Shown piece after piece: positions 21,351 through 63,306 of a stretch of DNA of 64,000 bases. Numbering within the stretch: the stretch's first letter is position 1; each line of letters begins with the position of its first letter. Where the stretch lies: positions 51,334 to 115,333 of the IMG/VR virus record IMGVR_UViG_3300047564_004641. The stretch is one strand, 5' to 3'. The position numbers were made by a program, and so were the translations under genes. The DNA comes from a virus. The notes below the pieces were generated by a model that worked only from the letters and a program-made list of their open reading frames with translations, did no database searches and had not been told where the DNA came from.

Positions 21351-21651
21351 TGGAGACACTGTTGACGTTGATATTGATTTAGGATTTAGCATTACACTCA
21401 GACAAAGAGTTCGTCTCAAAGATATTGATGCAGCAGAGACAAGAACTAAAGACTTAGAAGAAAAGAAAAAAGGTATTGATGCAAGACTTTGGTTAGAAAA
21501 AGAACTTGCAAGAGAAGGTGACTGGATTATCGAAACACATAAAGAAGACAAGTACGGAAGAATACTTGGAGTTCTTTATTGTGTTGGAGATCCAGTCACT
21601 GTAAATGAAAGAATGTTAAATGAAGGTATTGCGTATCCTTACATACTATGA
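21310..21651 (+). CDS. Thermonuclease (SNase) family nuclease
   Basis: 113 aa from MYQYKIKKIHR, with AGGA just ahead. Staphylococcal-nuclease core: VIDGDTVDV with Asp16, then Arg35, Asp40 and Glu43 (RVRLKDIDAAETR) at the very positions they occupy in SNase, and Arg84 (KYGRILG). A Ca-dependent DNA/RNA nuclease, possibly for host nucleic-acid breakdown. It runs 13 bp into the end of the convergent PE-repeat gene. Confidence 0.85.
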   Translation: MYQYKIKKIHRVIDGDTVDVDIDLGFSITLRQRVRLKDIDAAETRTKDLEEKKKGIDARLWLEKELAREGDWIIETHKEDKYGRILGVLYCVGDPVTVNERMLNEGIAYPYIL

Positions 21652-22883
21652 GGTCCGTGATCGAAATGATCTGTAGGAAGATCAAAGTGATCGAAGTGAA
21701 CCTCTGGGAGATTATCTAATACAACATCAGGAATATGAGTATCAAAATTATCAAGAGGATGCTCGTTAGGAATTTCGTGAGTATTAATAACATTTAGATC
21801 TACTGGATTTTCTTCTAAGAATCTTCCAACAAAATCATCATAATGTTCACTTGGAGACTGATCATTTTCAGCGTTATTGTGATTGAGGGAATTACCTGGA
21901 GCATCATCATCTCCGTTCCCCCATCCATTATTTTGCTGTTCATCAGGTTTTCCTCCACCATTTCCAGCATTTCCTCCATTACCAGGAGGATCTTTTGGAT
22001 CATTATTTTGTCCTCCATCATTCTTTGAATCGCCTGGAGGTTGGTTTGGTTCGGGATCTTGTCCATCTTGGTGATTACCTTTGCCTGGATTGTCTGATGC
22101 TCCTGTCTCACCATCCCAAGGGGAATTGCCTACATCTTTATCATTACCAGGATTACCCCCACCAGGTTCCTCTGGATCTTCAGGTTCTTCAGGTTCCTCT
22201 GGATCTTCAGGTTCTTCAGGTTCCTCTGGATCTTCAGGTTCCTCTGGATCTTCAGGTTCTTCAGGTTCCTCTGGATCTTCAGGATCTTCAGGATCTTCTG
22301 GTTCCTCTGGTTCCTCTGGATCTTCAGGTTCTTCAGGTTCTTCAGGTTCCTCTGGATCTTCAGGTTCTTCAGGTTCTTCAGGTTCCTCTGGATCTTCAGG
22401 TTCTTCAGGTGGTGGAGGTGGTGGTGGATCTTCAGGATCAACTGGGGGGTCTACAGGAGGCTCTGGATCAACTGGAGGATCTACCACATCTTCTTCGATA
22501 GGTGGTCCATCACTATTGCTAGAACTATCAGGAACAATATTATTCCCAGGTAAACTGCTAATAACGACATTTGCGTTTCTTATAGGAGTTGTTGAATCTA
22601 TTCTTGTATTTTCAATCTCTGGAATATTTCTATTCGCAAAGGAAATATTGTCCCCAGAAGACCCATAAACGTCCTGAGGAATAATGTCGTTTAATATTGG
22701 AGATGTTACTTCTACTTCAGGAACGTTTACAGGATCAACCTGTTCGACTGGAGTATTATCTTCACCAATTCCTACAGGTGTATATCCATTAGGATACCTA
22801 GATGCAGCATTAGGATCATAAGGGATAGTATCCTGTATTTGCTGATTTGACTTTTGCAGTTCTTCAAGTTGAAATTCATCCAT
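21639..22883 (-). CDS. Acidic Pro-Glu repeat protein
   Basis: 414 aa. Residues 161-240 are about 27 PE(E/D) triplets, preceded by PPVDP repeats and a run of seven prolines, followed by a Gly/Asn/Asp-rich region and an Asp/His-rich C-terminus (HFDHFDLPTDHFDH). The N-terminal 120 residues look ordinary (LQKSNQQIQDTIPYDPNAAS). Such rods act as spacers or anti-fouling stalks, but no family is recognised. Preceded by a late box at 22914-22921, so a late, possibly structural, protein. Confidence 0.7.
   Translation of the reverse strand: MDEFQLEELQKSNQQIQDTIPYDPNAASRYPNGYTPVGIGEDNTPVEQVDPVNVPEVEVTSPILNDIIPQDVYGSSGDNISFANRNIPEIENTRIDSTTPIRNANVVISSLPGNNIVPDSSSNSDGPPIEEDVVDPPVDPEPPVDPPVDPEDPPPPPPPEEPEDPEEPEEPEEPEDPEEPEEPEEPEDPEEPEEPEDPEDPEDPEEPEEPEDPEEPEDPEEPEEPEDPEEPEEPEDPEEPGGGNPGNDKDVGNSPWDGETGASDNPGKGNHQDGQDPEPNQPPGDSKNDGGQNNDPKDPPGNGGNAGNGGGKPDEQQNNGWGNGDDDAPGNSLNHNNAENDQSPSEHYDDFVGRFLEENPVDLNVINTHEIPNEHPLDNFDTHIPDVVLDNLPEVHFDHFDLPTDHFDHGPHSM
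22164..22406 (-). repeat. Tandem 9-nt repeats coding (PEE/PED)n
   Basis: About 240 bp of tandem variants of a TCT-TCA-GG(A/T) unit on the plus strand, coding the Pro-Glu repeats. The third-base changes are few, which suggests recent expansion by slippage. Confidence 0.85.
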
Positions 22884-22913: not shown

Positions 22914-22921
22914 ATTTATTT
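22914..22921 (-). promoter_or_regulatory. T4-type late promoter box
   Basis: AATAAATA on the minus strand, 30 bp ahead of the PE-repeat gene start. Confidence 0.65.
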
Positions 22922-23394
22922 TAAGTTCTTTTCCAAAGATCACCCTCTGCTTTTCTTCTTCTTGCTAATCCTGCCTCTACATTACTTCCAGGATTTCGGT
23001 AAAGATATAAAGCATCAGGAACTTTATCCCATTCCTTATTCTTTAATACTCTAGTTATGGTATTAAAATTGGGACCCCCGTAGAAATTAGCACCAAGATT
23101 ATAAGCAAAAGAAAGAAGTGCTCCTTGTTGATTTTCATTCATCTCATTCCAATAAGGGATTTTTTGTAGTGCAGGAATAAATTTTGTTTCAATATCAAAC
23201 ATTAACAGATCATCTGCTTCCTGTTGTGTAATGGTATTACCCATTATAAATCCAGTTCCATCTTTTCTGCTAGTAGAACCCCAACCTATTGTGATTGGAG
23301 CACCTCCAGTCAAAGGATCTGGATATGCTCTTAATTTACAACCTTCAAATACTTTTATCAGTTCTACCCCTTTAACTGGAATAGAACTAATTAC
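22921..23394 (-). CDS. GH24-type muramidase domain, reached by -1 frameshift from the peptidase gene
   Basis: 157 codons with no ATG, GTG or TTG before the catalytic region. The frame reads VELIKVFEGCKLRAYPDP then TGGAPITIGWG: Glu of FEG, Asp nine residues later (PDP) and Thr of ITIG form the E-D-T triad of T4-lysozyme-like muramidases, followed by the conserved FAYNLG and AGLARRRKAEGDLW. The first usable start (TTG at 23313) would lose the catalytic Glu and Asp. Entry is therefore most likely by -1 slippage at A-AAA-AAG just before the stop of the upstream peptidase gene, giving a ~390-aa fusion. A sequencing error in the A6 run is the main alternative. Confidence 0.8.
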   Translation of the reverse strand, partial: VISSIPVKGVELIKVFEGCKLRAYPDPLTGGAPITIGWGSTSRKDGTGFIMGNTITQQEADDLLMFDIETKFIPALQKIPYWNEMNENQQGALLSFAYNLGANFYGGPNFNTITRVLKNKEWDKVPDALYLYRNPGSNVEAGLARRRKAEGDLWKRT

Positions 23395-23400
23395 TTTTTT
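23360..23400 (-). promoter_or_regulatory. Programmed -1 frameshift signal
   Basis: On the minus strand: slippery heptamer A-AAA-AAG (23394-23400) in the zero frame GCA AAA AAG TAA, spacer TAATT (5 nt), then a stem AGTTCTATTCC (23378-23388) with GGGGTAGAACT (23360-23370), 11 bp including two G-T pairs, loop 7 nt. This is the arrangement of the E. coli dnaX frameshift site. No close internal Shine-Dalgarno stimulator was found. Confidence 0.8.
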
Positions 23401-24092
23401 GCATCAAAAATACGACCCCATCCAGTTCTATCTTTTCCTTTATCCAACCATCGTTGCATTAGATCTGATCTCTTATATACAGCACCTTTACCATTTGTAA
23501 CTGGTCCCGTATATCCATCGTTGAGAGAACCATAAGGATCATTTACAACATAATCATCACCTTTCTTACCGATCACTACAAGTAAGTGCCCGCCAGTAGG
23601 TGCAGATAAAGAACCGCGATGAAGAATCCCGATAACGACAGGTCTCCCAGCGGCAAGCTCACGATCAAGATCAGCAAAAGAAAGATTGTAAACAAATCGT
23701 GACTTAATACCATAACCTTCCAAAACTTTTGTTTGGACGGTGTGATCAGTCGTATCACCAATTGCGAATACCTTTTGAATATAGGCATCATCGCCTGTTG
23801 CTCCTTGAAGTGTGCCTGGTTTGAAATACTCTAGACACATCGCACAAGAAGATGAATTACAGGTTCTTTGTGCATCTCTGTAATTATCTGTTTGTGGGAA
23901 CCAAGGAACATTAAGAACTCCTGGAACTACTGGTTCTACTTTTGATCTATAAATTTTTATCCAACTCGTTTCATCATCAAGCAAGTCTGGATTTTTAGAT
24001 TCCAAATCCTTTTCAAACTGCTCTACTGCTGCAACGTGCTTTGGATTTTTAGGATCGTAGTGTAAAAAGAAATTATGGAGATCTATTTTCAT
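23391..24092 (-). CDS. C39-like (papain-fold) peptidase, N-terminal part of a probable two-domain endolysin
   Basis: 233 aa. After ~65 N-terminal residues comes NVPWFPQTDNYRD, the Cys region TCNSSSCAMCLEYF, then GGHLLVVIGKKGDDYVVNDPYG, giving the Cys-His-Asp order of the peptidase C39-like family. Such domains cleave peptide cross-links of cell walls or leader peptides. The frame ends ...FDAKK-stop right at the frameshift signal, and the muramidase domain continues in the -1 frame. So the gene may make both a short peptidase and a longer bifunctional enzyme. Late promoter box at 24115-24122. Confidence 0.8.
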   Translation of the reverse strand: MKIDLHNFFLHYDPKNPKHVAAVEQFEKDLESKNPDLLDDETSWIKIYRSKVEPVVPGVLNVPWFPQTDNYRDAQRTCNSSSCAMCLEYFKPGTLQGATGDDAYIQKVFAIGDTTDHTVQTKVLEGYGIKSRFVYNLSFADLDRELAAGRPVVIGILHRGSLSAPTGGHLLVVIGKKGDDYVVNDPYGSLNDGYTGPVTNGKGAVYKRSDLMQRWLDKGKDRTGWGRIFDAKK

Positions 24093-24114: not shown

Positions 24115-24122
24115 TATTTATT
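24115..24122 (-). promoter_or_regulatory. T4-type late promoter box
   Basis: AATAAATA on the minus strand, 23 bp ahead of the peptidase start and directly after the terminator T-run. Confidence 0.7.
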
Positions 24123-24148
24123 AAAAAAGGAGGGTTTTAACCCTCCTT
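24123..24148 (-). terminator. Terminator of the hli/peroxiredoxin operon
   Basis: AAGGAGGGTT (24127-24136) pairs with AACCCTCCTT (24139-24148), 2-nt loop, then a T-run on the minus strand. Confidence 0.85.
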
Positions 24149-45352: not shown

Positions 45353-45425
45353 TGCTGGTTGTCGGGATCGAACCGACCTATCTTGCCTTATGAGGGCAGT
45401 GCTTTCGCCAGAGAGCTAAACCAGC
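45353..45425 (-). tRNA. tRNA with CAU anticodon (Met or lysidine-type Ile)
   Basis: Acceptor GCTGGTT/AACCAGC, anticodon loop CTCATAA, T-arm GTCGG-TTCGATC-CCGAC. One mismatch at the base of the anticodon stem. The first base pair is G-C, so not initiator. Its 5' end overlaps the end of the HNH gene. Confidence 0.85.
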
Positions 45426-45835
45426 GTTTGTAAAAACTCTCCCCAACTATCACCATAATGTAATATATGATGGCAGTTATGACAAAGAAGATCACATTTA
45501 TCTACTTCTTCTTTGATAGTGTCCCATTTCCTATTAGCAAAAGATCTTCCATCAAGTTTTAATTCTTTTTGAGAAGGATCTCTATGATGAAAGCATAGAG
45601 TTGCTGGCCTATCTTCACCACAAGTTTGACACTTAGCACCTTTATATTGAAGTGCTTTCCATTTATTGGAATATGCACGTTCTTTTTGTTCAGTATAAGT
45701 GTTTCTGTTCATAACACAAGGATCATTTCTATATCTCCATTTCATTCGGCAAGTTTCATTACAATAGAGTTTTGCTCTTCCACCTTTTCGTGGATGTTGT
45801 TCAACTTCTTTACCGCAGGATTTACAGATAATCAT
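45416..45835 (-). CDS. HNH endonuclease beside tRNA genes
   Basis: 139 aa from MIICKSCGKEVEQ. Two zinc-knuckle pairs (CKSCGKEV, KCQTCGED), then FHHRDPSQKELKLDG and CDLLCHNCHHILHYGD, an HNH nuclease domain. It ends within the tRNA at 45416-45425. Such free-standing homing endonucleases insert next to tRNAs in T4-like phages. Late box at 45862-45869. Confidence 0.8.
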   Translation of the reverse strand: MIICKSCGKEVEQHPRKGGRAKLYCNETCRMKWRYRNDPCVMNRNTYTEQKERAYSNKWKALQYKGAKCQTCGEDRPATLCFHHRDPSQKELKLDGRSFANRKWDTIKEEVDKCDLLCHNCHHILHYGDSWGEFLQTLV

Positions 45836-45861
45836 TTTGGTTATGAACGTATACATACACC

Positions 45862-45869
45862 TATTTATA
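45862..45869 (-). promoter_or_regulatory. T4-type late promoter box
   Basis: TATAAATA on the minus strand, 27 bp upstream of the HNH gene start. Confidence 0.7.
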
Positions 45870-45885
45870 ATAAATGTATGTTGGA

Positions 45886-46032
45886 GGAGAGATCCATACA
45901 GTGAAACAGAAGCGCAATACAAGTCATAGGTCTGTTTCGCACCGACTTGCAGCTGGGGTTTTTCACTCTCCTTTTTTCAAGTAGGTTTTCTGTTGCTTAT
46001 CCTAAAAAACCCACTACAAAATGGATAAGCAA
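45886..46032 (-). ncRNA. Candidate structured RNA with two pseudoknot-like folds
   Basis: No open frame. First fold: TTGCTTATCC (45993-46002) with GGATAAGCAA (46023-46032), 10 bp, and loop bases 46006-46015 paired with 45980-45989, 10 bp, which is perfect only on the minus strand with one G-U. Second fold: GAAACAGA (45903-45910)/TCTGTTTC (45931-45938) interleaved with CAAGTC (45920-45925)/GACTTG (45944-45949), inside an outer GGAGAG/CTCTCC (45886-45891, 45966-45971). It follows tRNA-Ile in the same transcript. T4 too encodes two stable RNAs of unknown function in its tRNA cluster. Confidence 0.55.
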
Positions 46033-46034
46033 AG

Positions 46035-46106
46035 TAGGACTGCTGAGACTTGAACTCAGTTCACACCGTTATAAGCAGTGGGCCTTAACCCATAGGCGAC
46101 AGTCCC
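46035..46106 (-). tRNA. tRNA-Ile(UAU)
   Basis: Acceptor GGGACTG/CAGTCCT, anticodon stem CACTG/CGGTG with loop CTTATAA (anticodon UAU), T-arm CTGAG-TTCAAGT-CTCAG. Reads AUA without needing lysidine modification. Own promoter at 46121-46149. Confidence 0.85.
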
Positions 46107-46120
46107 TTAAGACCAGATCT

Positions 46121-46149
46121 ATAGTAGCGGACCTGGAACGCTCTGTCAA
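46121..46149 (-). promoter_or_regulatory. sigma70-type promoter of tRNA-Ile
   Basis: Minus strand TTGACA (46144-46149), 17-bp spacer, TACTAT (46121-46126), 15 bp ahead of the tRNA. Confidence 0.7.
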
Positions 46150-46379
46150 GACCCTTCTTCGTGGTCTGTGTGAATCTTGACTATCTCTTCAAGATCCACA
46201 TTTGCTTCGTTACATATACTAACCACTTCTTTGTAAGGAACCATTACTGCATTTCCGTGTTGACTTTTGATGAGTAGTGTCTCACCGCTTTCTACTCTAT
46301 TCATAAGGTTATCAAAATCTGCTTGAAACTCTTCAATTGTAAAGGATGGAAGTTTTTCGATTTCTGGATTCATTTTCAT
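46146..46379 (-). CDS. Phd/YefM-like antitoxin-type protein
   Basis: 77 aa. FQADFDNLMNRVESGETLLI and HGNAVMVPYKEV follow the Phd/YefM DNA-binding domain pattern (F-x-x-x-L-x-x-x-V...G-x-x-V-V-P). No toxin gene is adjacent, so it is an orphan. It could neutralise a host toxin or act as a small regulator. Confidence 0.7.
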   Translation of the reverse strand: MKMNPEIEKLPSFTIEEFQADFDNLMNRVESGETLLIKSQHGNAVMVPYKEVVSICNEANVDLEEIVKIHTDHEEGS

Positions 46380-46395
46380 AAAGTGATTTTATGAG

Positions 46396-46469
46396 TCCGA
46401 GTTGCAGGATTCGAACCTGCGACCCTCTGCTCCCAAAGCAGATGCGCTACCAAACTGCGCTAAACCCGG
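46396..46469 (-). tRNA. tRNA-Pro(UGG)
   Basis: Acceptor CCGGGTT/AACTCGG with one G-U, anticodon loop TTTGGGA (UGG), T-arm GCAGG-TTCGAAT-CCTGC. Directly downstream of the 38-aa gene; promoter at 46492-46520. Confidence 0.92.
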
Positions 46470-46586
46470 TTACTTGTCTCTATGTATAAACATAATACCA
46501 GCAAATGGTACGATTGTCAACCCGCACCCGCAGAGAAAAAGAAAAAATGGATTTGCTGCGAGTGCTTCTACGATATGGAAAATCAT
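46470..46586 (-). CDS. 38-aa membrane protein
   Basis: Frame MIFHIVEALAANPFFLFLCG then CGLTIVPFAGIMF. Hydrophobic, ends in HRDK. Start overlaps the previous stop as ATGA, and the stop abuts tRNA-Pro. Confidence 0.5.
   Translation of the reverse strand: MIFHIVEALAANPFFLFLCGCGLTIVPFAGIMFIHRDK
46492..46520 (-). promoter_or_regulatory. sigma70-type promoter of tRNA-Pro
   Basis: Minus strand TTGACA (46515-46520), 17-bp spacer, TATTAT (46492-46497), inside the 38-aa gene. Confidence 0.7.
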
Positions 46587-46672
46587 TTTATATATGCGTG
46601 ATCTAGGGACCAAATGATTAACAATCCTATTATACCAAAGATTGTGAGTGCTGTATAGATGCGGTCATTCAT
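46583..46672 (-). CDS. 29-aa membrane peptide
   Basis: Frame MNDRIYTALTIFGIIGLLII then WSLDHAYIK; one transmembrane helix. Coupled on both sides by overlaps in a chain of five tiny genes (47118-46470). Confidence 0.5.
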   Translation of the reverse strand: MNDRIYTALTIFGIIGLLIIWSLDHAYIK

Positions 46673-46769
46673 CGTCTTCGTCCTCGTATGTAGAAGGTTC
46701 TTCAAAAAGTTCATTCATCTTTTGTTGTAAAACTCTTTTTAGTAGTTCTTCTAAATCTTCTTCTGACAT
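46665..46769 (-). CDS. 34-aa acidic peptide
   Basis: Frame MSEEDLEELLKRVLQQKMNE then LFEEPSTYEDEDDE. Helical and acidic; ATG shares bases with the previous stop (TAATG). Confidence 0.5.
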   Translation of the reverse strand: MSEEDLEELLKRVLQQKMNELFEEPSTYEDEDDE

Positions 46770-46969
46770 TAGTTTAACGTGATCTTAAGCCAAGGTAAGA
46801 GTGGGGGAATAATACCAATCAGTCTCAGTAGTCCCTCAGCAAATAAAGCAAGAACCACCCAACCGACGCACATACTAATGATAGAAGCATTACGGTTGTG
46901 TCGTCGTATTGCTGCATCAATCATCTCCTGAACTTCTGAACGAGTAATAAATTCGTCTTGAGGTTCCAT
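46769..46969 (-). CDS. Small membrane protein
   Basis: 66 aa from ATG at 46969 (a GTG codon lies just ahead). Polar N-terminus (EPQDEFITRSEVQEMI) and one or two hydrophobic helices (IISMCVGWVVLALFAEGLL). Start overlaps the previous stop (TGATG). Confidence 0.6.
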   Translation of the reverse strand: MEPQDEFITRSEVQEMIDAAIRRHNRNASIISMCVGWVVLALFAEGLLRLIGIIPPLLPWLKITLN

Positions 46970-47118
46970 CACTTCTCATCTCCAAGAAATTTTGCAAGAG
47001 GATCTCTACGGGTTTTAACTATCTCAACTGCTCTTTTATAGAACATATTATCAGTGTTACCAGAAGCCTCAAAAGTTTCTTTGATCTTCACCCAATTATC
47101 ATAGGTGCGTTGATCCAT
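46969..47118 (-). CDS. 49-aa hypothetical protein
   Basis: Frame MDQRTYDNWVKIKETFEASG ... RDPLAKFLGDEK. First of the chain of small coupled genes. A possible promoter (TTGACG then TATATA-like box near 47140-47170) lies upstream but is weak. Confidence 0.55.
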   Translation of the reverse strand: MDQRTYDNWVKIKETFEASGNTDNMFYKRAVEIVKTRRDPLAKFLGDEK

Positions 47119-47230
47119 TTTTCTAGTTCGTATTACTACTATATACTAGTTCTGGACTTTTGAACGTCAACGATTTGTGTTCAAAGAGTAACACTGTTGA
47201 AGAGAATCTTAAATTTTTAATGCTTCTTAA

Positions 47231-47315
47231 CGGAAAGGGTGGGATTCGAACCCACGGATGCTTTCACATCGCCAGTTTTCAAGACTGGAGCCTTCAACCA
47301 CTCGACCACCTTTCC
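47231..47315 (-). tRNA. tRNA-Ser(UGA)
   Basis: Acceptor GGAAAGG/CCTTTCC, anticodon stem CCAGT/ACTGG with UGA, long variable arm (CGATG...CATC), T-arm GTGGG-TTCGAAT-CCCAC. Confidence 0.93.
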
Positions 47316-47327
47316 AATATTCAGTTC

Positions 47328-47579
47328 TTAACGAACTTCAAAATCAAGACGCCTAACTTTACGCTGGCGACGTGCTTCTTGCCAAGCAATATCTTGAGAA
47401 GTCAGCACACCTTTTTTTTGATTTTCTTTTAAAGAGTTTAGCATAACAATGCGAGATAAGTCAAGTGCCGAAATCTTATCTCCACGAATTGTTGCCATAT
47501 TCGGACATCCACAAGTAACTGTTTTTGAGTGGTGTCCTGTTAGTTCTCTATTACAATCTTTGCATCTTATTGATAACAT
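47328..47579 (-). CDS. Zinc-binding small protein
   Basis: 83 aa. Four Cys pattern CKDCNREL...VTCGCPNM, a likely zinc ribbon, then a helical basic C-terminus (WQEARRQRKVRRLDFEV). Conserved-looking among cyanophages; function unknown. Confidence 0.65.
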   Translation of the reverse strand: MLSIRCKDCNRELTGHHSKTVTCGCPNMATIRGDKISALDLSRIVMLNSLKENQKKGVLTSQDIAWQEARRQRKVRRLDFEVR

Positions 47580-47594
47580 TGTTCTTCATCCTCA

Positions 47595-48029
47595 TCACTG
47601 TAAATGTGATCTTAATTGCCATACAAACTTACCGTGAGATTCCATTAAATCTTGAACTAGATTAGCAGTTGCATAAGACTTTTGTTGCTCTGCTTCTTCC
47701 GAAATCTCTACCATCAACTCACAAAACTTAGTGTTATTATCCAGAAGTTCTTGAAGCATATCTTTTGCTCCAGATGAACTTGCTGCCTCTTTAATTTGTG
47801 TAACCTCAAGCATTCTTGAAAGAGAACTTAATGGTTTTACATTTAAGTATCTCATATGTTCGGAGAGTCTGTCAATCTCTTCAAACATCGTTTCATACTG
47901 TCCGCCAAAGAGTTGATGTAGTTGAGTAAAATCTTCTCCAACTACATTCCAGTGAAACGCCCAAGTTTTATGAAATAAAACAAAAAGTGATGACTGAGCA
48001 TCACTTAAGAGTTTAAACAGTTTTTCCAT
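47595..48029 (-). CDS. dps: Dps-like ferritin-family protein
   Basis: 144 aa from MEKLFKLLSDAQ. FHKTWAFHWNVVGEDFTQLHQLF and QYETMFEEIDRLSEHMRYL give the H-x-W-x-x-H and D/E-x-x-x-E-H ligands of the Dps ferroxidase. Dps binds DNA and detoxifies iron plus peroxide. Last-part segment is helical as expected. In a cyanophage this may protect DNA from photo-oxidative damage. Late boxes at 48043-48054. Confidence 0.85.
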   Translation of the reverse strand: MEKLFKLLSDAQSSLFVLFHKTWAFHWNVVGEDFTQLHQLFGGQYETMFEEIDRLSEHMRYLNVKPLSSLSRMLEVTQIKEAASSSGAKDMLQELLDNNTKFCELMVEISEEAEQQKSYATANLVQDLMESHGKFVWQLRSHLQ

Positions 48030-48042
48030 TATACTCTTTTTG

Positions 48043-48054
48043 TATTTATTTATC
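48043..48054 (-). promoter_or_regulatory. Overlapping late promoter boxes
   Basis: AATAAATA (48043-48050) and GATAAATA (48047-48054) on the minus strand, 14-25 bp ahead of the Dps-like gene and within the spacer after tRNA-Val. Confidence 0.6.
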
Positions 48055-48059
48055 AAGTA

Positions 48060-48132
48060 TGCCCGATATAGGTTCCGCCCCTACCGATGCCTGCTTGTAA
48101 GGCAGGTCCCTTCACTAGCTGGGTCATCGGGC
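48060..48132 (-). tRNA. tRNA-Val(UAC) with unusual D- and T-loops
   Basis: Acceptor GCCCGAT/ATCGGGC, anticodon stem CCTGC/GCAGG with loop CTTACAA, T-stem GTAGG/CCTAT. All lengths fit a 73-nt cloverleaf. But the T-loop is GGCGGAA rather than TTCNANN and the D-loop has no GG pair (AGCTAGTGAA). Confidence 0.7.
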
Positions 48133-48137
48133 AAAAG

Positions 48138-48211
48138 GTCCTCTGTCTAGGAATCGAACCTAGTTTCCAAGTGCATTGTCTGCCTGTCCTTACCAATAGA
48201 CTACCAGAGGA
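48138..48211 (-). tRNA. Degenerate tRNA-like gene
   Basis: Acceptor TCCTCTG/CAGAGGA and T-arm CTAGG-TTCGATT-CCTAG are good, but one extra base lies between T-stem and acceptor and no clean 5-bp anticodon stem with a U at position 33 can be drawn. Either a decayed tRNA or a stable tRNA-like RNA. Confidence 0.45.
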
Positions 48212-48215
48212 TGTG

Positions 48216-48308
48216 GTAGGTGTTGGGGACTTTACCTATGTCCCCACTCTTTACATTCACCCAAGCACCAGTTTAAACATCGACCTGGGGAGAGGTTTTG
48301 GCACCTAC
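48216..48308 (-). ncRNA. tRNA-sized structured element
   Basis: Closed by GTAGGTG (48216-48222)/CACCTAC (48302-48308) with an inner GGGGAC/GTCCCC hairpin. 93 nt like a class II tRNA, but no TTC-type T-loop. Unknown. Confidence 0.35.
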
Positions 48309-48342
48309 GAAGGTTTCCAATAGCCGTTCTTATCTCCCATAA

Positions 48343-48411
48343 GGAAGATGTAGGTATCGAACCTACAAAGGACAGTCCCTAACGGAACTGCTGGGAATTC
48401 CACCCAGAACC
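48343..48411 (-). ncRNA. Second degenerate tRNA-like element
   Basis: Has a fine T-arm (GTAGG-TTCGATA-CCTAC), a CTGGG/CCCAG arm and a CAGTTC/GGACTG arm, but no partner for the 3' acceptor strand ATCTTCC. Confidence 0.35.
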
Positions 48412-48446
48412 AATATGAAAGAATCGGACATTTCCAACCCTTTCAA

Positions 48447-48518
48447 CTCCACAACCTGGATTCGAACCAGGGACCAAAAGATTAACAGTCTTCTGCGCTA
48501 CCGCTGCGCCATTGTGGA
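48447..48518 (-). tRNA. tRNA-Asn(GUU)
   Basis: Acceptor TCCACAA/TTGTGGA, anticodon arm AAGA-CTGTTAA-TCTT, T-arm CCTGG-TTCGAAT-CCAGG. Confidence 0.93.
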
Positions 48519-48538
48519 ATAAGAACCCGAAGGTTCAG

Positions 48539-48609
48539 AGCGGGTAACCGGAATCGAACCGGTGACTCCAACTTGGAAGGATGGCATTTTACCCCTAAAC
48601 TATACCCGC
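48539..48609 (-). tRNA. tRNA-Gly(UCC)
   Basis: Acceptor GCGGGTA/TACCCGC, anticodon loop CTTCCAA (UCC), T-arm ACCGG-TTCGATT-CCGGT. Own promoter at 48620-48648. Confidence 0.92.
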
Positions 48610-48619
48610 TTATGAGACA

Positions 48620-48648
48620 ATCATAAACCTTTTGAGTTTGATTGTCAA
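48620..48648 (-). promoter_or_regulatory. sigma70-type promoter of tRNA-Gly
   Basis: Minus strand TTGACA (48643-48648), 17-bp spacer, TATGAT (48620-48625). Confidence 0.75.
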
Positions 48649-48649
48649 G

Positions 48650-48734
48650 TGCCCGAAACAGGATTTGAACCTGTAAGCCGTCGTAGGGCGATAGGACCTA
48701 AACCTATTGCGTTTGCCAATTCCGCCATTCGGGC
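48650..48734 (-). tRNA. tRNA-Leu(UAG)
   Basis: Acceptor GCCCGAA/TTCGGGC, anticodon stem ATAGG/CCTAT with UAG, long variable arm, T-arm ACAGG-TTCAAAT-CCTGT. Confidence 0.93.
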
Positions 48735-48818
48735 AAGATGGAGTAAGTGTGATATACCTCATAAGGATATAACAGAGACTTACTCTCTATTACTTTTATA
48801 TATGGAGATAAACTCCAA

Positions 48819-48890
48819 CAGGCTCACCTGGAATCGAACCAGGGACATTCGCTTAGAAGGCGAAGGTTATATCCGCTTAACTATGAGCCC
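48819..48890 (-). tRNA. tRNA-Arg(UCU)
   Basis: Acceptor GGGCTCA/TGAGCCT with a G-U end pair, anticodon stem TTCGC/GCGAA with loop CTTCTAA (UCU), T-arm CCTGG-TTCGATT-CCAGG. Confidence 0.92.
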
Positions 48891-48898
48891 ATATAAGT

Positions 48899-63233: not shown

Positions 63234-63306
63234 TGGAGAATAGGGGACTCGAACCCCTCACCCCCGCCGTGCAAAGGCGGTGCTCTACCAAATGAGCTAA
63301 TTCCCC
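63234..63306 (-). tRNA. tRNA-Ala(UGC)
   Basis: Acceptor GGGGAAT/ATTCTCC, anticodon stem CCGCC/GGCGG with TTTGCAC (UGC), T-arm AGGGG-TTCGAGT-CCCCT. 11 bp after a strong promoter. Confidence 0.94.

Follow-up and report, generated by a model that had tools for sequence, protein, structure and literature searches.

Programmed -1 ribosomal frameshifting is well described for dnaX of E. coli, the gene of tau and gamma. There, ribosomes slip at A AAA AAG, a stem-loop lies a few nucleotides downstream, and slippage truncates the protein. The condition that makes this heptamer highly slippery in E. coli is the presence of tRNA-Lys with anticodon UUU without one with CUU. Transposases of the IS3 type employ a -1 shift as well, often at A AAA AAG followed by a downstream structure, and produce OrfAB besides OrfA alone. 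Among phage genes, those for tail assembly proteins are the best-known cases of programmed frameshifting. Some endolysins obtain two products from one gene by internal initiation, in which a second start codon yields a shorter product beside the full-length one. In phage SPP1, a putative -1 shift at UUUUUUC has been assigned to 17.5/17.5* and another shift, at CCCUAA, to 17.1 (PMC6316719).

Here we describe a cyanophage lysin gene that is, with high probability, expressed in a comparable manner, namely as a two-product lysin run by a dnaX-type programmed -1 ribosomal frameshift. It resembles dnaX in the heptamer A AAA AAG, in the nearby downstream stem-loop and in a host tRNA-Lys with UUU only. 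It differs in that slippage in dnaX truncates, whereas in our locus and in most of its relatives it would extend translation into a second enzyme, in a phage lysin. As in IS3-type transposases, the -1 shift would join two open reading frames into a two-domain enzyme, but those are transposon genes that serve no lysis, and there is no homology. Lambda G/GT-type tail chaperones and SPP1 share with our locus conserved frameshifting in tailed phages, but they concern tail proteins and not a lytic enzyme. Endolysins with internal initiation rely on a second start instead of recoding; moreover, the shorter product is here the N-terminal half.

The gene lies on the minus strand of a 64,000-nt stretch of DNA (the window), whose source is a 115-kb virus record (IMGVR_UViG_3300047564_004641) with cyanophage genes including psbA. 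The zero frame (23391..24092) encodes 233 amino acids, an N-terminal module followed by a C39-like peptidase, and is closed by TAA (23393-23391). The slippery heptamer (23394..23400) directly precedes this stop, so the frame ends GCA AAA AAG TAA, as the initial annotation had it; after a -1 shift the codons read AAA AAA GTA ATT. The heptamer follows the X XXY YYZ pattern and lies within the overlap of both frames. The -1 frame continues through a linker and a GH24 muramidase (22921..23394, 157 codons, stop 22923-22921), and both frames joined give a computed fusion of 390 amino acids. A TGA (23404..23406) closes the -1 frame one codon 5´ of the heptamer and thereby confines slippage to the heptamer or the preceding codon; 82 of 94 relatives likewise leave the -1 frame only one open codon upstream of the heptamer. 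The length of the muramidase frame, its complete Glu-Asp-Thr triad, the absence of a start before Glu and the sizes of both products thus all agree with the initial annotation.

In the model we propose, ribosomes would read the N-terminal module and the C39-like peptidase and arrive at A AAA AAG before the stop, where the stem-loop 5 nt past the heptamer would stall them. A share of them would terminate and leave the 233-aa peptidase. The others would slip one base back, tRNA-Lys UUU re-pairing from AAA/AAG to AAA/AAA, cross a flexible linker and enter the GH24 muramidase, giving the 390-aa two-domain enzyme. The muramidase domain could then be produced only when joined to the peptidase. During lysis, the fusion would attack both peptide and sugar parts of peptidoglycan. 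We infer the occurrence of slippage from sequence signals and, by analogy with E. coli dnaX, expect an efficiency of tens of percent. Both enzymes presumably act in lysis, and possession of both products may be a selected trait.

The tRNA complement of possible hosts fits this scheme. A tRNA-Lys pattern search in six picocyanobacterial genomes matched anticodon UUU in each and CUU in none (one pattern only), and ARAGORN found tRNA-Lys(UUU) in all six. The window carries ten tRNA genes of its own (45353-48891 and 63234-63306, minus strand), with no Lys tRNA among them; its His tRNA has, according to ARAGORN, the unusual anticodon ATG.

Chance occurrence of a heptamer followed by a stop is not rare in AT-rich DNA (the decamer AAAAAAGTRR occurs three times in the window against 2.9 expected), so the evidence rests on conservation and not on rarity. 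Relatives were collected from named phages, by DNA and protein searches, and from IMG/VR; this gave several hundred loci, tallied by distinct junction. Of the junctions, 103 distinct ones carry a canonical slippery heptamer, which is A AAA AAG in 100 (179 loci) and U UUU UUU in three from the S-CAM7 group, all of the -1 class. The remaining arrangements are an overlapping NTGA start (27 junctions, and six more that also retain the heptamer), an in-frame fusion without the heptamer (15), an in-frame fusion whose slippery heptamer is soon followed by a stop in the -1 frame (9), peptidase and muramidase as separate genes (49) and the muramidase-first order (2). The nine include one locus (L283) that fits the pattern of inverted logic but that we discount, its heptamer lying in a different linker. 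Among relatives that overlap in -1 without an NTGA start, the heptamer occurs in all but two junctions (L234/L514 and L520), and these two have their own ATG with GGAG before it. By comparison, the first ~290 loci contain 689 further long open frames, and none of these ends in A AAA AAG plus stop. The putative slip site is thus common across one cyanomyovirus lysin family and not peculiar to the window phage.

The second element is the stem-loop (23360..23388), whose 11 bp (23388-23378 with 23370-23360) enclose a loop of 7 nt (23377-23371). It begins 5 nt past the heptamer, within the ~5-9 nt typical of stimulatory structures at -1 sites. The initial annotation had described the stem in this form; it can be extended to 14 bp (23391-23357), and this is the form found by RNAfold (-17.1 kcal/mol, z -5.0), with none of 200 shuffles equally stable. 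Its 5´ arm falls in the linker region, and its 3´ arm in the codons of GVELIK or its equivalents. The family has three main stem groups with unrelated sequences and registers whole codons apart, yet at similar distance after the heptamer; in a few members the stem is weak or atypical. Clade stems differ and yet stay complementary, and pairing is abolished when arms are swapped among phages. In an alignment-free test with 39 representatives, each phage's 5´ arm was paired with other phages' 3´ arms; native pairs score 23.2, permuted ones 14.6 +/- 0.9, and the best of 2000 permutations reaches only 17.7. Within two of the stem groups, with arms anchored on the heptamer and the Glu codon and no fitting to structure, the covariation score is reached by 0 of 500 shuffles, and double changes include G-C/A-U and U-A/C-G exchanges. 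Because the stem groups were picked by best register, percentages of paired cells are favoured, and the permutation test is the safer measure. Conservation of heptamer plus stem at homologous cyanophage loci, proposed earlier as a check, is therefore borne out by 103 distinct junctions with a heptamer and by compensatory changes in the stem, and the reading as a programmed -1 frameshift is supported by them.

A search of the junction against Rfam gave no family match, only hits at chance level. Sites of the dnaX subtype have an upstream Shine-Dalgarno-like stimulator; none is established for the window site, where the purine-rich GGGG stretch upstream of the heptamer coincides with conserved GWGR codons and is not separated from protein constraint.

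The only serious rival to ribosomal frameshifting is transcriptional slippage. Phage or host RNA polymerase would slip on A6, or on T8 in the S-CAM7 group, and a share of the mRNAs, with one extra base, would encode the fusion in frame, with no shift by the ribosome. A homopolymer is indeed present at the site, the S-CAM7 site is T8, and in-frame A7 variants exist (L185/L400, L207/L396-L399). A run of six A is short for efficient slipping, however. Further, all 79 junctions with a stop immediately after the heptamer show the phasing xxA AAA AAG (with no near misses in the class), although GCA, GTA, AAA and AAG account for only 36, 28, 61 and 39% of the codons for their amino acids in these genes. 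This phasing partly follows from how the class is defined, but slippage on DNA would not require it. Finally, a conserved, covarying RNA stem at a fixed distance is a ribosomal signal. We thus regard transcriptional slippage as improbable.

Even less probable is the production of two separate proteins and no fusion, the muramidase being initiated alone, by reinitiation at a non-AUG or unseen start. Such an arrangement has a natural counterpart in a sister class (L057-L102 and others), where an ATGA/GTGA stop-start overlap replaces the heptamer. In the window, however, no ATG, GTG or TTG precedes the catalytic Glu codon (FEG, 23344..23346) in the -1 frame; the first comes after it. The locus hence lacks the start codon before the second active site that marks an endolysin with an internal translation start. 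The same absence is found in 44 of 94 relatives. Among relatives with the heptamer, roughly half carry GTG or TTG (rarely ATG) somewhere ahead of Glu in the -1 frame; internal initiation may occur in these, but it is excluded for the window. Moreover, most members of the overlap class have no heptamer, which suggests that overlap and heptamer largely replace each other. Several stop-start overlap sisters (L002, L161, L174, L189, L190) retain a heptamer, possibly a useless one. Because sisters manage with an overlap, with separate genes or with a heptamer-less fusion, frameshifting would not be indispensable.

Next to ribosomal frameshifting, an error in the A6 run, hiding a single A7 gene, has only a minute probability. 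One added A would restore a single frame, and A7 does replace A6 in two groups of relatives (L185/L400 and L207/L396-L399), giving in-frame fusions with stems retained. The L207 form is identical in contigs from four metagenomes, so it is probably no assembly error either. The A6 run of the window recurs in near-identical independent assemblies (L011 and L012), in 179 loci or 100 distinct junctions in total, and in two S-PM2 records with the identical junction A AAA AAG TAA; the earlier caution about this run is thereby answered for the family. Compensatory stem changes cannot arise from errors, and conservation and covariation exclude a sequencing error at family level. According to the initial annotation, homologues that are simply fused in frame, or whose muramidase has an ordinary start codon, would speak against the site. 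Some do exist, but they form distinct arrangements, and since several of them keep or re-evolve the slip site, the window site is not refuted by them.

Both halves of the predicted product are recognizable enzymes. The peptidase matches Pfam PF13529 (Peptidase_C39_2; E 4e-13, 50.5 bits against a cut-off of 24), with C78, H169 and D185 conserved and the Cys-His-Asp motif shared by all 94 relatives; searches with it in NCBIfam and, by phmmer, against PDB gave no match. The muramidase matches PF00959 (Phage_lysozyme, GH24; E 1e-22, 81.2 bits against 22.3). PHROG 3617 is one profile of 405 positions spanning both halves, that is, of in-frame relatives. In 11 relatives, dN/dS (Nei-Gojobori, with dS near saturation) is ~0.17 for the -1 frame of the muramidase and 0.14 for the peptidase, values which indicate that the -1 frame is under purifying selection. 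A decaying gene, whose muramidase half was lost to a frameshift mutation, has almost no probability left, since it is suggested by the frame change alone, against a Glu-Asp-Thr motif intact in 94 of 94 relatives, a dN/dS of this size in the -1 frame and a junction common to diverged lineages; conservation and covariation exclude a pseudogene at family level.

The AlphaFold2 model of a natural in-frame A7 relative (L207) has two well-folded domains; the linker between them (residues 231-241) is disordered and coincides exactly with the shift point. In a fold search, the best matches for the muramidase are GH24 lysozymes, and the peptidase retrieves C39-like proteases including 3erv. A module of ~55 amino acids without a Pfam match (DLHNFFKYYDEKNPKH...W..IYR) heads peptidases and also stand-alone muramidases (L005, L006). 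Frameshifting may give the muramidase access to this N-terminal module.

Part of the family appears to use frameshifting with inverted logic. In these phages the zero frame leads into the fusion, and a -1 slip is predicted to hit TGA one codon later and leave the peptidase alone. Heptamer and stem are kept in both instances, the ACG-2014f clade (L008, L009, L379-L382), with A AAA AAG TCTGA and a GGAGGG/CCCTCC stem, and L401 and L477, with A AAA AAG TCTGA or CCTGA and a stem of the type found in normal-logic relatives. Here the likeness to dnaX is closer, as slippage would run straight into TGA. A single base separates the two forms: L041 has A AAA AAG TCT TGA (normal) and L401 has A AAA AAG TCT GA (inverted). 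If efficiency is near 50%, both forms are equivalent, and a one-base indel would flip the logic and leave the products unchanged.

On the peptidase tree, the arrangement classes need at least 18 changes (a quick method, with many weak branches). The overlap class arises repeatedly among frameshift lineages, perhaps through recombination. The U UUU UUU site of S-CAM7 and L104 has its own stem, and its position within a set of in-frame fusions suggests that it arose independently. One explanation would be that cyanomyoviruses need a fixed ratio of free peptidase to fusion to time lysis, a ratio that frameshifting would maintain in three ways: by A AAA AAG plus stop extension, by an independently evolved U UUU UUU extension and by dnaX-like truncation. 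We offer this tentatively and would put its chances slightly below even. Across the relatives, the same gene is arranged for normal or inverted frameshifting, as an in-frame fusion, with a stop-start overlap or as two separate genes, and this natural series makes the reason for a phage lysin ratio directly testable.

Frameshifting as such and its parts are known, but the open-access literature we searched contains no description of a lysin as its target, nor of one gene family that combines two slip motifs with two opposite logics. The remark that no phage lysin made by frameshifting is known likewise holds there, although a search limited to open-access papers is weak evidence of absence. If our reading is true, frameshifting governs the infection-ending enzyme in viruses of Synechococcus that recur across many aquatic metagenomes. 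It would also mean that annotated lysins of reference genomes can be wrong. In S-PM2, the "putative lysin" S-PM2p154 (L003 2457-2675) starts 204 nt past the catalytic Glu codon, and it stands in the database without an active site because the putative frameshift was missed. In S-CRM01 (L288, 369-1678), the muramidase is broken mid-domain by a frame change into "endolysin" and "hypothetical protein", with no canonical slip site at the break, possibly as a result of a sequencing error; by eye, a YkuD-like L,D-transpeptidase domain follows.

The surroundings of the gene show several features of their own. Upstream of it is a terminator-like hairpin, AAGGAGGG-TTAAAA-CCCTCCTT, followed by a T run (24127..24148, minus strand), which is also found upstream of the lysin in several relatives. 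About 30 nt 5´ of the ATG lies a late-promoter-like sequence, AATAAATA (24115..24122, minus strand). It fits NATAAATA, which we take to be the late-promoter motif of T4-like phages and cyanophages and which is present at most 70 nt upstream of the lysin gene in 53 of 94 distinct relatives. Downstream of the lysin, at 21639-22883 (minus strand), the window encodes a protein in which (E/D)(E/D)P is repeated over a long tract.
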